A stretch of DNA of 64,000 bases, from the NCBI GenBank assembly GCA_013697785.1, contig JACCWE010000101.1, positions 1 through 64,000 on the forward strand, given 5' to 3'. A program made the position numbers and the translations under genes. Of the stretch, positions 1 through 22,060 are shown piece by piece. Numbering within the stretch: the stretch's first letter is position 1; each line of letters opens with the position of its first letter. The notes below the pieces were generated by a model. That model had not been told where the DNA came from. It worked only from the letters and a program-made list of their open reading frames with translations, and ran no database searches. The DNA is from Gemmatimonadaceae bacterium (lineage in GTDB: Bacteria; Gemmatimonadota; Gemmatimonadetes; Gemmatimonadales; Gemmatimonadaceae).

Positions 1-160
1 CGACGGTTCCGCTGGGCGGCGTCGACATGGCCTGCGCGAAGAGATAATAACCCTCCGGAACGGCCTGGTTATACCACTCGTTGTAAGGCTCGAGAATCGA
101 AAACGGGTCGTCGCTCGACGAGTAGAAGAAACTGCTGTAATCGTAGTCCAGTGGATTCAT
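1..160 (-). CDS. Partial N-terminus, possible alpha-oxoamine synthase (serine palmitoyltransferase-like)
   Basis: The first 53 codons of a minus-strand gene are visible; the rest lies outside the window. It starts MNPLDYDYSS and includes DPFSILEPYNEWY and EGYYLFAQAM. This layout (an acidic lead, a helix of the type 'DPF..l..y..W', then 'GYY.F...') resembles the N-terminal helix of PLP-dependent alpha-oxoamine synthases, where 'GLYPYFRPLE' precedes the core. No catalytic residue is visible, so the family is a guess helped by the divergent lipid genes next door. If correct, it would condense serine (or another amino acid) with an acyl thioester to start sphingoid-base synthesis. The start is an ATG overlapping an unused ATG on the other strand. 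Confidence 0.35.
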   Translation of the reverse strand, partial: MNPLDYDYSSFFYSSSDDPFSILEPYNEWYNQAVPEGYYLFAQAMSTPPSGTV

Positions 161-203
161 GCTCGTCCGCGCTTCGACTCGTGTTGCCATTGGTGACCTC
201 CAC

Positions 204-1067
204 ATGAATGCCGACAGCTCATCGCCGTCCACCTCTCGCGCTCACAGCGGAGCGCGTACTGGACTCGCGCGTACGCTGAGAAGCGGCATGTTTTTCGTCG
301 CATATTCGATCTTTACACTGACGCTATTCGATCTCGGACAGCGCCTGGTGATCTGGCCTGCCGTTCTACTATTTCCAGTCAAACGCCGGGCCATCGTTCG
401 CCGCTGGCTTCGCTTTCTAGCAAACGGATCCCTTTGGATCTCTCGCGTCTTCGGCGGCGTTCGGGTCAACTGGACCGGTACCCCACCGACTGAGAGCTGC
501 CTGCTGGTGATGAATCACCAATCGCTGCTCGATATAACGATTTCCGTCAAGGCGGCGGAAGGCCCGCAGGCGGTCATTCCGACGCGTGAAAGATACGGCC
601 ATGGCATCCCCGGCATATCCTCACTGATAAAGCTCGGCCAATTCCCCCTGGTGACGCAACAGGCGCGGGCGACCAAGGCTGAGGTCGCTGCGCTTCTACA
701 GGCCGCAAAGGATCTCGCCAACGGTGAAACGACACTGATCATCTACCCCGAAGGGCATCGAACGACCGACGGAAACATTCAGCCCTTCATGCGCAGCGGT
801 CTCAAGCTTTTGCTCTCTCGAGCGCAGCGCCCAATCTATTACGTGGTCTCCGACGGTTTGTGGCACGCCCGAACGATCAAGGAAACGGTCCACTCGTTCG
901 CGAACAGCTCTGTCGACGTCGTGATTCGTGGGCCATTCGCAGCACCGGCGAAGGAGAACATCGACGCCTTCATCGATGAGCTCGAGGCCAATATGGCTCG
1001 TACACTCGCGGAGATTCGTCATCAGCCATCGCTCGCCGCCGAGCGTGAGGTGCGCGCCGTTGGCTGA
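204..1067 (+). CDS. PlsC-type lysophospholipid acyltransferase family protein
   Basis: This is a membrane-associated acyltransferase expected to move an acyl group to a lysophospholipid or related hydroxyl or amine acceptor. The family block I motif NHxxxxD is intact (N104, H105, D110, in NHQSLLD), and block III reads IIYPEGHR near residue 175. A hydrophobic stretch at about residues 29-60 should anchor it in the inner membrane. I chose the ATG with GGTGA 7 nt upstream; an in-frame ATG 45 nt earlier overlaps the divergent gene's start and adds 15 unconvincing residues. It is translationally coupled to the next two lipid genes, which suggests one pathway. The acceptor cannot be told from sequence; a ceramide-type N-acyl acceptor is possible if the divergent gene is an oxoamine synthase. 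Confidence 0.85.
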   Translation: MNADSSSPSTSRAHSGARTGLARTLRSGMFFVAYSIFTLTLFDLGQRLVIWPAVLLFPVKRRAIVRRWLRFLANGSLWISRVFGGVRVNWTGTPPTESCLLVMNHQSLLDITISVKAAEGPQAVIPTRERYGHGIPGISSLIKLGQFPLVTQQARATKAEVAALLQAAKDLANGETTLIIYPEGHRTTDGNIQPFMRSGLKLLLSRAQRPIYYVVSDGLWHARTIKETVHSFANSSVDVVIRGPFAAPAKENIDAFIDELEANMARTLAEIRHQPSLAAEREVRAVG

Positions 1068-2046
1068 GCTCGAGCTTCGTGCGAATCTCGCGGCGGGACT
1101 CGACAATGCCCCGAGTCCCGACGCGACGGAGCTTGCGGCCATGCTCGCCCGATCGTTTGGTGAGGGTACCGTTGCCATCGTTCACTACGGCTCTCACGCT
1201 CAGCACTCGGACGCGAAGCGGGAAAGCGCCTACGACTTCTTCGTCATCGTCGATCGGTACGGCGACTCGTACGCATCGCTCGCACGCACGGTTGGCACCA
1301 GCTACTCTGCTCGAACCGCGGCAACGCTGAATCGTATGTTGCCGCCAAACGTCATCGCGGTGAACCACAGCTCGCACGTGCCGCCGCTCGCCGCCAAGTG
1401 TGCCGTACTGTCGCTCGAGGATCTGCGCCGGGAGTGCTCGCCCAGTGCGCGAGATCACTTCGTGCGCGGAAGACTTTTTCAGTACGTGCAGCTGGCGTGG
1501 ACGCGGGACGCACAGTCTCGCGCGGCCGTGACCGACGCCATCATCGATGCGCGCATCGGATCGTTCGGCTGGGGAGCGGCATCGCTCCCGCCGGCCTTCG
1601 ATGCGGAACAGTACTTTCGGGCGCTGCTCGAGCGATCGTTTTCGGGAGAGATTCGCCCCGAGCGCGGCGGACGGATCGACGCCCTGCTCGACGCGCAACG
1701 CGAGGTGGTGCTACGGGTCTATGATGCTTTGCTTCAACAACTTGCACGAGAAAGAATACTCGCTTTCGACGGGAAAGTCTACCAGTTGGCGAAGCCCGCG
1801 AGCGCATGGCGCGCCATGCGCGCGGGCTGGTATTTCCGGCGAAGCAAAGTGCGCGCGACGGCGCGGTGGGCGAAGTACGTCGTGTTGTACGATGACTGGC
1901 TGGAGTACGTAGTGCGCAAAATCGCGCGGCGCAGCGGAGTGACGCTGGAGCTGACCGCGCGCGAACGTCGCTGGCCGCTCATCTTTCTCTGGCCGAAAGC
2001 CATTCAGTATCTTCGTTCCCGTCCTCAACGCCGTCCCGATCAATAA
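1060..2046 (+). CDS. Tam41-like nucleotidyltransferase (predicted CDP-lipid synthase)
   Basis: A 328-residue soluble protein carrying a nucleotidyltransferase signature: HYGSH (G44, S45) followed by DFFVIVD with D59 and D65 as candidate metal ligands. The following order (PPNVIAVNH, then a strand KCAVLSLEDL, a helix GRLFQYVQLAW, then ARIGSFGWG) parallels mitochondrial Tam41, which makes CDP-diacylglycerol from CTP and phosphatidic acid. It lies between an acyltransferase and a CDP-alcohol phosphatidyltransferase, where a CDP-activated lipid would be made and used. The start is TTG, overlapping the upstream stop, with GTGAGG 9 nt before it. An in-frame upstream ATG would run inside the acyltransferase gene and is rejected. 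Another nucleotidyltransferase-fold role remains possible. Confidence 0.6.
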   Translation: MAELELRANLAAGLDNAPSPDATELAAMLARSFGEGTVAIVHYGSHAQHSDAKRESAYDFFVIVDRYGDSYASLARTVGTSYSARTAATLNRMLPPNVIAVNHSSHVPPLAAKCAVLSLEDLRRECSPSARDHFVRGRLFQYVQLAWTRDAQSRAAVTDAIIDARIGSFGWGAASLPPAFDAEQYFRALLERSFSGEIRPERGGRIDALLDAQREVVLRVYDALLQQLARERILAFDGKVYQLAKPASAWRAMRAGWYFRRSKVRATARWAKYVVLYDDWLEYVVRKIARRSGVTLELTARERRWPLIFLWPKAIQYLRSRPQRRPDQ

Positions 2047-2828
2047 TGTCCACGACCACGTGGGTCGCGCTCACGCTCATGGCGCTCGCGATCCTGACCA
2101 TGCCGGTCTATGCGGTGATCGCGCGCCGTCGCGCAGTCGATGCCGATGTCGCGCGCCGGCCAACGACGATCATTCTCGGCACGTGGGTGCGCGACTGGCT
2201 CATGTGGACCATCGGACCGGTCGAGCGGAAGTTCGTCGAATGGAAATTGTCGCCGGATCTGTTCAATTATATCGGCGGAGCGTTCGGACTCTTCGCGGGC
2301 ATCGCCTACGCGAAGAGCGAGCTCGCACTCGGCGGCTGGCTTATCCTGATCGGAGGTCTCGCCGATATCTTCGACGGCCGCATTGCTCGCGCGCGTGGAA
2401 TCGGCTCGAACTACGGCGAGTTTCTCGATTCGATGCTCGATCGGTTCGCGGAGATGTTCGCCTTCCTCGGCATTGCGCTCTACTTCGAGCCGACGTGGTG
2501 GGCGATGTCGGCGACGGTGCTCGCGAGCGGCGGCTCGATGATGGTCTCGTACGCGCGCGCGAAGGGCGAGGCGGTGGGTGTCGACTGCCGCGGCGGGATC
2601 ATGCAGCGCGCCGAGCGGCTCGTGACGCTGGCGGTCGCATCGCTGATCGACACCCCGATCACGACAGCGCTCGGCTGGATCCCGGGAGTGATTCTGTTGA
2701 GCGCCGTGACGCTCATCGGACTCGGCTCGCTCGGAACGGCGGTGTATCGGACGATCTACATCTGCAAGGCGCTGCGGAAGATGGAGGTAGAGGCGGCAGC
2801 GAAGGTGGCGGCTTCGGCTTCGGTGTGA
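2046..2828 (+). CDS. CDP-alcohol phosphatidyltransferase family protein
   Basis: An integral membrane enzyme that transfers a phosphatidyl-type group from a CDP-activated lipid to an alcohol. The full family motif is present: D107, D110, G111, A114, R115, then G124, D128 and D132. Its 260 residues have an extended N-terminal helix and several further membrane helices. The stretch SYARAKGEAVGV followed by GIMQRAERL is typical of the phosphatidylinositol-phosphate/archaetidylinositol-phosphate synthase side of the family, so an inositol phosphate acceptor is a reasonable guess. Its ATG shares one base with the upstream TAA, so it should be co-translated with the Tam41-like gene. Confidence 0.9.
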   Translation: MSTTTWVALTLMALAILTMPVYAVIARRRAVDADVARRPTTIILGTWVRDWLMWTIGPVERKFVEWKLSPDLFNYIGGAFGLFAGIAYAKSELALGGWLILIGGLADIFDGRIARARGIGSNYGEFLDSMLDRFAEMFAFLGIALYFEPTWWAMSATVLASGGSMMVSYARAKGEAVGVDCRGGIMQRAERLVTLAVASLIDTPITTALGWIPGVILLSAVTLIGLGSLGTAVYRTIYICKALRKMEVEAAAKVAASASV

Positions 2829-20979: not shown

Positions 20980-21444
20980 CTAGAACATCGACAGCGCGAG
21001 GAACGATCGCAGCGAATCGTTCGTCGACCGCAGCCGTCCGCTCAGCATCCGCACCACCGCCCACAACACTTTGTAGGCGAGATCGCGGTTGAACTCGAGG
21101 AGCATCTCGAACTCCGAACGCGAGATCGTGAGTACCGTGGTGCCCCCGTGCGAGATCGCGTCCGTCGACCGCTCGCTCCTGTCGAACACCCCCATCTCGC
21201 CGAACATCGCGCCGCGCTTGAGCACCGCCAGCGCCTCCTCACCGGCGCCCGGAATCTGGCGGCTGATACGCACGCCGCCGTCCACGATGATGAACAGCCG
21301 GTTGCCCGGCTCACCCTCGCGAAAGATGTATTCCCCGGATTCGAAGCTCTTCGATTCGCACAGCTCTGCGATCTTGCCGAGATCCTCAGAGGTGAGCGCG
21401 TTGAAGAGCGGGAGCGGGCGGAGGAGGTCGAGAGTGGCGGACAT
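20980..21444 (-). CDS. Cyclic nucleotide-binding domain protein without DNA-binding domain
   Basis: A 154-residue protein that is almost entirely a cNMP-binding domain: LPLFNALTSEDL, YIFREGEPGNRLFII, GGVRISR, and the phosphate-binding cassette FGEMGVFDRSERSTDAIS. It ends after the C-helix with no helix-turn-helix, so it is a sensor or adaptor rather than a transcription factor. The cassette has GEMG and RSTDA, close to cAMP-type cassettes, but the ligand is unknown. It leads an operon with the SpeD-like protein and the membrane glycosidase-like protein. Confidence 0.85.
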   Translation of the reverse strand: MSATLDLLRPLPLFNALTSEDLGKIAELCESKSFESGEYIFREGEPGNRLFIIVDGGVRISRQIPGAGEEALAVLKRGAMFGEMGVFDRSERSTDAISHGGTTVLTISRSEFEMLLEFNRDLAYKVLWAVVRMLSGRLRSTNDSLRSFLALSMF

Positions 21445-21550
21445 GCTCTATGGACGAGTGAAGCAGGCGGGAGGTTCTATGTACGTTGCACGCGGAGTGC
21501 TGGCAAGCACTCCCGGCGGTCGCTTATGTTGGAGCGTGCGCCGCTCATCG

Positions 21551-22060
21551 ATGCTCACCATCCCGAATCTGCTCTCGGCCTCGCGCTTCCCGCTCGCCGC
21601 GGCATTCCTGGCGACGGACGCGACGCCGGCGCGCGTCGCGCTCATCGGCGCCGCGTCGCTCACCGATGTGCTCGACGGCTGGCTTGCCCGCCGCCAGCAG
21701 ACCACCCGCCTCGGCGCCCTCCTCGATCCCATCGCGGACAAGACCTTCGTCCTCGTCGCGATCTCCGCTTTTCTCATTGCGGGCGAGCTCTCGACGCTCG
21801 ACTACTTCACCATTCTTCTCCGCGACTTCGCGACTGCCGTCGGCTTCCTCGTCGCGTACCTGCTGAAGGATCTCGACCCGAAGAACTTCAAGGCGCGGAT
21901 GTCGGGGAAGGTCGTGACGGTGCTGCAGCTCGCCGCCGTGCTCGCGCTCGTGCTCCACGCCACGCTCCTCCGCCCTCTCATCTGGATGGTAGGGGCGGCG
22001 TCGGTCTGGGCGATCGTGGACTACACGCTGCTCCTCCGGCGCCAGCGCGCGCGCGCGTGA
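21551..22060 (+). CDS. CDP-alcohol phosphatidyltransferase (PgsA-like)
   Basis: A 169-residue integral membrane enzyme with the complete family motif: DVLDGWLARRQQTTRLG followed by LLDPIADK (D..DG..AR........G...D...D). The opening TIPNLLSASR and DPIADKTFV are typical of phosphatidylglycerophosphate synthase, which makes PG/cardiolipin precursors from CDP-diacylglycerol and glycerol 3-phosphate. It is short for PgsA (usually about 180-190) but intact. I left the symbol open because other CDP-alcohol enzymes share these motifs. The next gene starts inside its stop (GTGA). Confidence 0.85.
   Translation: MLTIPNLLSASRFPLAAAFLATDATPARVALIGAASLTDVLDGWLARRQQTTRLGALLDPIADKTFVLVAISAFLIAGELSTLDYFTILLRDFATAVGFLVAYLLKDLDPKNFKARMSGKVVTVLQLAAVLALVLHATLLRPLIWMVGAASVWAIVDYTLLLRRQRARA

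Follow-up and report, generated by a model that had tools for sequence, protein, structure and literature searches.

A Tam41-like nucleotidyltransferase in a recurrent six-gene cluster of Gemmatimonadota and a proposed CDP-ceramide route to phosphosphingolipids

The first 2828 nucleotides of the window, by which we mean the whole stretch of 64,000 nucleotides that was analysed, raise the question of which lipid is activated by a Tam41-like nucleotidyltransferase encoded between an acyltransferase and a CDP-alcohol phosphotransferase. The source genome is that of a soil bacterium (Gemmatimonadaceae). The first-pass annotation had described three genes joined by overlaps, and ORF calls and domain searches confirmed all three, recognisable by PF01553, by the motifs HYGSH and YDFFVIVD, and by PF01066, respectively. 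The gene of the LPLAT/PlsC-type acyltransferase (AT) lies at 204..1067 on the forward strand (longest ORF 159-1067, probable start ATG 204). On the same strand, the gene of the 328-aa Tam41-like nucleotidyltransferase (TAM, 1060..2046) runs from TTG 1060 to TAA 2046, with an alternative start at GTG 1045, and begins 8 nt inside the end of AT, whose stop is at 1065-1067. The gene of the CDP-alcohol phosphotransferase of PIP-synthase type (CAP, 2046..2828, forward strand) starts with ATG 2046, 1 nt inside the TAM stop. That TAM is a chance ORF was ruled out by its homologues, which occur in 50 of the 298 genomes from the phylum and on 52 named contigs.

A fourth, divergent gene, of which the 5' part lies at 1..187 on the reverse strand, leaves the window at the contig end (the window starts at G000:C63:1). 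The first 127 bases of contig C80 are the same sequence, reversed, as that at this contig end, and the joined contigs, on which the gene continues up to C80:1215, encode a 424-aa alpha-oxoamine synthase, as had been suspected from the fragment. Among alpha-oxoamine synthases of known structure, the protein was closest to serine palmitoyltransferase (SPT; 3a2b/8guh, 291 bits), and the next scores in the PDB were 249 bits, then 233 for KBL, 224 for ALAS and 177 for BioF. Because it falls below the NCBIfam SPT equivalog cut-offs (361 bits where 640 are required, and 348 where 500 are), we named it SPT-like. Two further genes, AAD and KIN, lie beyond SPT on the adjoining contig and complete a set of six: SPT, AAD, KIN, AT, TAM and CAP.

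The identity of TAM emerged from alignments and structure. Searched as a single sequence against the PDB, TAM gave just a weak nucleotidyltransferase match, and alignments were required. The window protein matched no Pfam family at E <= 0.1, so that PF09139 was missed, and it had no match to PF01148, the integral membrane CTP_transf_1 domain of CdsA. Within the TAM family, 17 of 48 members matched PF09139 at E <= 0.1 (best 3.6e-5); a PF09139 search in relatives gave no match, and equally none in 14 control genomes, which makes this search uninformative. The AlphaFold model (pLDDT 86), compared with the PDB by Foldseek, had Tam41 as all of its top five matches (E 8e-8 to 2e-6), with the next family at 1.4e-3. 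About 280 residues of the predicted fold were matched to Tam41 (PDB 6IG2, 6IG4 and 7ECD; TMt 0.59-0.68), and the model has a nucleotidyltransferase domain followed by a second domain in the Tam41 arrangement. The 48-member alignment met a Tam41 fragment in hhalign at E 1.7e-4 with a probability of only 50%, while a profile that included CpgC-like relatives matched Tam41 6ig2 at E 1.1e-5. Profile and fold searches thus lead to Tam41, as the first-pass annotation had proposed for the 328-residue protein.

Tam41 has been reported to carry a GS motif with one of three catalytic acids (PMC11646218). TAM has the same layout: G44-S45 (codons at 1189..1194, forward strand), the GS motif of the nucleotidyltransferase fold, align with Tam41 G73-S74, and D59 (1234..1236, forward strand), the motif's one acidic residue, aligns with D91 of the Tam41 chain. 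All three residues are invariant across 30 sequences with identity down to 24%, and the position two residues after D59 is not acidic, as in Tam41. The two proteins have in common the pattern GS...D...K...R...[DE]xR...E and a peripheral character with a basic C-terminal part. They share 12-14% identity, and TAM differs in its sphingolipid cluster setting beside a housekeeping CdsA. Tam41/TAMM41 is the mitochondrial CDP-DAG synthase, and phosphatidic acid is the substrate of every Tam41 protein characterised so far (PMC7018664; PDB 7ECD). A bacterial Tam41-like synthase is not in itself novel, since bacterial Tam41 is already known from PDB 7ECD and from Kimura 2022, as cited in PMC11646218.

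The accompanying proteins are also lipid enzymes by homology. AT matches PF01553 at E 4.8e-10 as a PlsC-type domain, and its HX4D motif NHQSLLD is kept in 49 homologues. KIN is a lipid kinase of the YegS/DgkB kind with a DgkB-type domain; it was considered as a CpgB orthologue and set aside, the similarity being remote (E 5e-8 to 0.04). AAD has an acetoacetate-decarboxylase fold (PF06314, E 3.8e-8; the top 24 PDB matches all belong to the ADC family) and carries an invariant RWxLPH, at a position that may correspond to the motif with the catalytic Schiff-base lysine of ADC.

CAP matches PF01066 at E 6.1e-13, and its closest protein in the PDB is the R. salmoninarum PIPS (5d91). It scores under the NCBIfam PIP-synthase equivalog cut-offs (NF045883, 103.5 of 170 bits; NF040950, 133.3 of 180 bits). 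CAP resembles the PIP synthases of M. tuberculosis and R. salmoninarum in the CDP-AP motif, D-x2-DG-x2-AR...G-x3-D-x3-D, and in the inositol-phosphate residues, with S168, R171 (K to R), R191 and R235 corresponding to MtPIPS S132, K135, R155 and R195. At least 93% of the CAPs from the clusters keep these four residues together with D107, D110, D128 and D132. A189 of CAP takes the place of P153, which lies at the groove for diacylglycerol in the M. tuberculosis enzyme. MIPS is encoded in the genome, as in 50 of 50 TAM genomes; MIPS as a module marker was rejected, since 278 of all 298 genomes have it. Canonical PIP synthase was found in 16 of 50 genomes with TAM and in 235 of 248 without it, and only this loss, not MIPS, discriminates TAM genomes. 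The window's genome has a second PIP synthase, in a complete operon with MIPS on contig C150.

Studies have shown that Caulobacter makes ceramide phosphoglycerate (CPG) through the cluster CC_1158-1163, in which CC_1160 is the ceramide kinase and CC_1161 (CpgC, ccna_01219) is required for the conversion of ceramide-1-phosphate to CPG (PMC11324152, PMC12275187). An InterPro domain of CDP-DAG synthases has been reported for CC_1161, along with the proposal of an NDP-activated ceramide (PMC11324152), and recent papers describe CpgC as acting by an unidentified mechanism. In Caulobacter, CPG is made even without the CDP-AP CpgA, a result that a simple CDP-ceramide route leaves unexplained. In Roseomonas, Qipengyuania and Pseudomonas we found full-length TAM homologues beside a lipid kinase; those of Roseomonas and Pseudomonas are inside SPT clusters. 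The order in R. marmotae, phosphoesterase - CDP-AP - kinase - TAM homologue - SPT - ACP, is that of CC_1158-1163. TAM aligns with the R. mucosa protein at the CpgC place with hhalign probability 99.8 and E 3.6e-29 over 289 columns, and blastp with a homologue at that place gave 2e-21. By sequence comparison, TAM is thus homologous over its full length to the 'hypothetical' protein that stands at the CpgC place, between kinase and SPT, in CPG clusters of the Caulobacter type, a relationship that is new here; the homologues are putatively CpgC, judged by the R. marmotae gene order compared with that in PMC11324152. The Gemmatimonadota cluster differs from that of Caulobacter in having AT and AAD, in being without CpgD, LptF/G, ACP and phosphoesterase, and in its inositol-phosphate type of CAP.

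The six-gene set recurs in Gemmatimonadota, Acidobacteriota, Eisenbacteria, Latescibacterota and Krumholzibacteria. All six genes stand together in 30 of 52 contigs (divergent in 23, one-directional in 7), and KIN and AAD are often still beside AT-TAM-CAP where SPT is not adjacent. No conserved cluster gene was found beyond the six, the next being an alcohol dehydrogenase in 10 loci. Among the 298 genomes, TAM co-occurs with SPT in 46 of 50 TAM genomes (Fisher p ~1e-38) and with AAD in 47 of 50 (Fisher p ~1e-40). A CerS-like GNAT is encoded in 24 of 39 TAM genomes, and none was matched in the window's own genome, whose cluster also has no reductase.

From the observed gene content, conservation, fold, residues and co-occurrence we infer the catalytic steps and the lipid, and with slightly better than even confidence we believe that the six genes form a phosphosphingolipid pathway. 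By homology, SPT would make the sphingoid backbone, which would be N-acylated by a CerS-like GNAT encoded elsewhere in many TAM genomes, or perhaps by AT, and KIN would phosphorylate the sphingoid base or the ceramide. TAM, as a peripheral Tam41-fold cytidylyltransferase, would transfer CMP from CTP to the lipid phosphate, giving a CDP-ceramide-type donor. CAP, with CDP-ceramide as its presumed donor instead of that of PIP synthase, would exchange CMP for L-myo-inositol-1-phosphate from MIPS. The product, ceramide phosphoinositol phosphate, would be trimmed by a phosphatase from outside the cluster. The wider proposal, that the Tam41-fold family common to Gemmatimonadota, Acidobacteriota, other phyla and the Caulobacter-type clusters makes CDP-ceramide, is in our estimate somewhat short of an even chance. 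A nucleotide-activated sphingolipid has been proposed, yet in the open-access literature searched no organism was shown to make CDP-ceramide. Points against the phosphosphingolipid pathway are the phosphatidic acid used by characterised Tam41, the CpgA-independent CPG, two genomes with TAM and CAP but no SPT, and the distance of KIN from CpgB-type kinases; further ones are the CAP scores below NCBIfam cut-offs and the window's genome without a CerS-like GNAT and without a reductase in the cluster.

The main rival, which we regard as unlikely, is that TAM is an ordinary Tam41-type CDP-DAG synthase, with AT and KIN supplying phosphatidic acid and CAP making PI-phosphate; the presence of SPT and AAD next to them would then reflect a cell that makes both lipids. 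Bacteroides is such a case, in which PI-DAG later donates its head group to ceramide. The known substrate of Tam41, the PlsC- and DgkB-type domains of AT and KIN, two genomes with TAM and no SPT, and the 34 of 50 genomes where TAM-CAP seems to take over from canonical PIP synthase all fit this explanation. However, CdsA is present in 49 of 49 TAM genomes tested, in the window's genome as a separate gene on contig C164, which leaves no need for another CDP-DAG synthase. The operon on C150, the linkage of TAM to SPT or AAD in 46-47 of 50 genomes and the CpgC-like syntenic homologue in ceramide clusters also speak against it, and so does the cluster without an AUR1-like transferase. Nor does the window cluster have a BT_1522-like transferase, in which it differs from the Bacteroides BT_1523 inositol-lipid cluster. 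An alternative cluster of Bacteroides vulgatus likewise pairs a nucleotidyltransferase with a CDP-alcohol phosphotransferase for an inositol sphingolipid, but there the nucleotidyltransferase, of phosphocholine-cytidylyltransferase type, is proposed to make CDP-inositol, so that the head group is activated and not the lipid (PMC9246714).

Less probable still is a portable TAM-CAP head-group cassette of broad lipid-phosphate specificity, combined with any unusual backbone of the host, a sphingoid one in most genomes and an alkyl-ether one in genome G126. Two otherwise good genomes, G126 and G074, have TAM and CAP without SPT, so that lipid phosphates of other kinds could also be substrates of TAM. 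In G074 the pair stands with KIN only. In G126 it is beside an FAD-linked oxidase and a fatty acyl reductase-acyltransferase fusion, which suggests an ether lipid, the possible alkyl-DHAP-synthase type of the oxidase being read from Pfam domains only. SPT-AAD-KIN without TAM in 11 genomes also agrees with a cassette, whereas the clear exceptions are just two in 49 intact cases. Nucleotide transfer by TAM to a small molecule or protein is very improbable: most nucleotidyltransferase-fold enzymes act on targets other than lipid phosphates, aminoglycoside nucleotidyltransferases come after Tam41 among the fold matches and a few TAM members match Pfam Adenyl_transf weakly, but Tam41 is clearly first by fold and profile scores and the partner genes all encode lipid enzymes.

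The CDP-ceramide pathway is the best-supported model. The first-pass annotation, which proposed a separate, CdsA-independent route to an activated lipid, perhaps a sphingolipid or an inositol lipid, is largely supported; the route would run beside CdsA, and its replacement by TAM is rejected by the same 49 of 49 genomes. No mechanism is known by which ceramide-1-phosphate receives a head group in bacteria, and this module pairs a CpgC-type protein of predicted Tam41 fold with a recognisable CDP-alcohol phosphotransferase, which reduces the question to one direct assay. If the model holds, inositol phosphosphingolipids are to be expected in phyla for which no description of sphingolipids was found in the literature searched, and the fold of the mitochondrial CDP-lipid synthase would have been put to use a second time, independently. 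PI-to-ceramide exchange is the route of fungi and Bacteroides. If the wider proposal is true, bacteria would instead make their phosphosphingolipids by way of CDP-lipids, in the manner of glycerophospholipids.

At the start of the window lie three forward-strand genes: AT, an LPLAT-type acyltransferase (ORF 159-1067, likely start ATG 204; Pfam PF01553), TAM, a nucleotidyltransferase of 328 residues (1060-2046, TTG start) matching nothing in Pfam or NCBIfam, and CAP, a CDP-alcohol phosphotransferase of the PIP-synthase type (2046-2828; Pfam PF01066). The TTG of TAM sits within the last codons of AT, and the TAM stop and the CAP ATG have one base in common; all three overlap-joined genes of the first-pass annotation were found at 1-2828. 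Position 1 of the window is a terminus of contig C63, and bases 1-127 reappear in reverse at one end of contig C80. Such an identity usually indicates overlapping contigs, and what cuts the gene at the window edge is a break in the assembly, not a true gene end. After joining, the divergent gene, earlier read in part as an alpha-oxoamine synthase, was complete and was indeed such an enzyme (424 aa), with serine palmitoyltransferases as its nearest solved structures. Because it scored under the NCBIfam cut-offs for serine palmitoyltransferase, we call it SPT-like (SPT). Behind it lie AAD (C80:1212-1904; PF06314) and the lipid kinase KIN (C80:1901-2815; PF00781 and YegS_C). We consider the join sound because uninterrupted contigs of relatives show SPT and AT in the same arrangement. 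Structure matches gave AAD the acetoacetate decarboxylase fold, and its invariant RWxLPH may occupy the position of the catalytic lysine motif of that enzyme. AAD is perhaps a missing step of the proposed sphingolipid pathway.

Tam41 was out of reach of single-sequence search with TAM. It was the top match of a 48-member TAM profile (E 0.028), collinear across about 205 positions, and reached 1.1e-5 after four CpgC-like plasmid proteins were added. The Pfam model PF09139 was matched by 17 of the 48 members (best 3.6e-5); the window protein misses it and is therefore named Tam41-like. The five best PDB matches of the TAM AlphaFold model (pLDDT 86) were all Tam41 structures, including 7ECD from a Firmicutes bacterium, and the next family scored almost three orders of magnitude worse than the last of the five. 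Residues invariant in 30 TAM sequences include G44, S45, D59, K113, R138, E197, R199 and E201; in the profile alignment, Tam41 chain residues G73, S74, D91, K150, R174, R230 and E236 stand opposite most invariant TAM residues, and E197 aligns with the D of GDIR. Tam41 has a single acid in its nucleotidyltransferase motif (PMC11646218), as does TAM. Because profile, fold and residue matches agree, we regard the homology as secure, and in our judgement the fold of the protein, whose layout was already read as Tam41-like from the sequence, is very probably of the Tam41 type.

Of 298 genomes sampled from the phylum, 50 had a TAM homologue, and homologues were found on 52 named contigs from Gemmatimonadota, Acidobacteriota (Vicinamibacteria), Eisenbacteria, Latescibacterota and Krumholzibacteria. 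The Gammaproteobacteria title of record VXNP01000051.1 is probably wrong, and the same title on other listed records may be too. The six-gene set was complete on 30 of the 52 contigs, with SPT-AAD-KIN divergent from AT-TAM-CAP in 23 and all genes in one direction in 7; no seventh conserved gene was found at the TAM loci compared. SPT was present in 46 and AAD in 47 of the 50 TAM genomes. AAD was found in all 57 SPT genomes of the phylum sample, often in two copies. Eleven genomes had SPT without TAM, and all nine such loci inspected had their own SPT-AAD-KIN set. The dependence is therefore stronger from TAM to SPT than in the other direction, which is what a downstream step should show. Two cases stood out as exceptions. 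Genome G074 has only KIN-TAM-CAP, and in G126 (C3, 5841-13319) TAM-CAP, without SPT, adjoins an FAD-linked oxidase and a fatty acyl reductase-acyltransferase fusion, possibly an ether-lipid version of the module.

One study describes Caulobacter CC_1160 (CpgB) as a ceramide kinase and CC_1161 (CpgC), in which it notes a CDP-DAG-synthase InterPro domain, as required to convert ceramide-1-phosphate to ceramide phosphoglycerate, and suggests an NDP-activated ceramide (PMC11324152); later papers still call the CpgC mechanism unidentified (PMC12275187, PMC13228409). When plasmids were searched by tblastn, full-length TAM homologues came up in Roseomonas, Diaphorobacter and Pseudomonas; using the Roseomonas protein as query brought in Qipengyuania as well. 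The order in R. marmotae is phosphoesterase, CDP-alcohol phosphotransferase, lipid kinase, TAM homologue, SPT and ACP; the clusters of R. mucosa and of Pseudomonas sp. JS425 include, in addition, LptF/G, a fatty acyl-AMP ligase and an NAD-dependent reductase, and the R. mucosa SPT clears the NCBIfam SPT cut-off (613 vs 500 bits). The gene order seen in R. marmotae corresponds to that of CC_1158-CC_1163 (PMC11324152). On gene order we take the plasmid homologues as putative CpgC counterparts. The R. mucosa cluster, of Caulobacter ceramide-phosphoglycerate type, lies on a large plasmid (NZ_CP147881.1), human skin isolates included. IncP-type plasmids of Diaphorobacter (NZ_CP065408.1; predicted conjugative) and Pseudomonas (NZ_CP073662.1) carry sphingolipid-type clusters that include a CpgC-like gene, and from this location the sphingolipid trait may be mobile.

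The first-pass annotation proposed a route to an activated lipid that does not use CdsA. CTP-dependent activation by TAM is most likely, but CdsA, found in 49 of 49 TAM genomes, is not replaced. The window's genome also has its own operon of MIPS, the proposed source of L-myo-inositol-1-phosphate, and a PIP synthase paralogous to CAP (C150:8988-11057), and there is therefore no obvious need for another CDP-DAG route. We judge a sphingoid or ceramide phosphate to be the probable substrate class of TAM. A CerS-like GNAT occurred in 24 of 39 TAM genomes tested and was absent from the window's genome, where we guess that AT might N-acylate instead.

For the acceptor, CAP retains the equivalents of S132, K135, R155 and R195 of M. 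tuberculosis PIP synthase, whose importance for inositol phosphate was shown by mutation (PMC4634129). A further PF01066 domain, PgsA-like by eye, lies at 21089-22060 on the forward strand of the window. MIPS was present in 50 of 50 TAM genomes. Canonical PIP synthase (match to the C150 protein at E < 1e-33) was found in 16/50 genomes with TAM vs 235/248 without it, and in 11/43 vs 25/30 within family f5, in tests that count genomes as independent, though relatives are not. In many carriers CAP appears to have assumed the making of inositol lipids. Either donor, ceramide or diacylglycerol, is compatible with this, and it therefore supports the acceptor, not the donor. On balance we lean towards inositol phosphate as the acceptor.

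Neither bacterial Tam41 nor the Caulobacter cluster is new; for these genes in combination, and for their occurrence across several phyla, we found no description in the searchable literature. In the most likely function, TAM would activate a sphingoid or ceramide phosphate with CTP and CAP would then transfer inositol phosphate, with certainty falling from fold to lipid class to acceptor.
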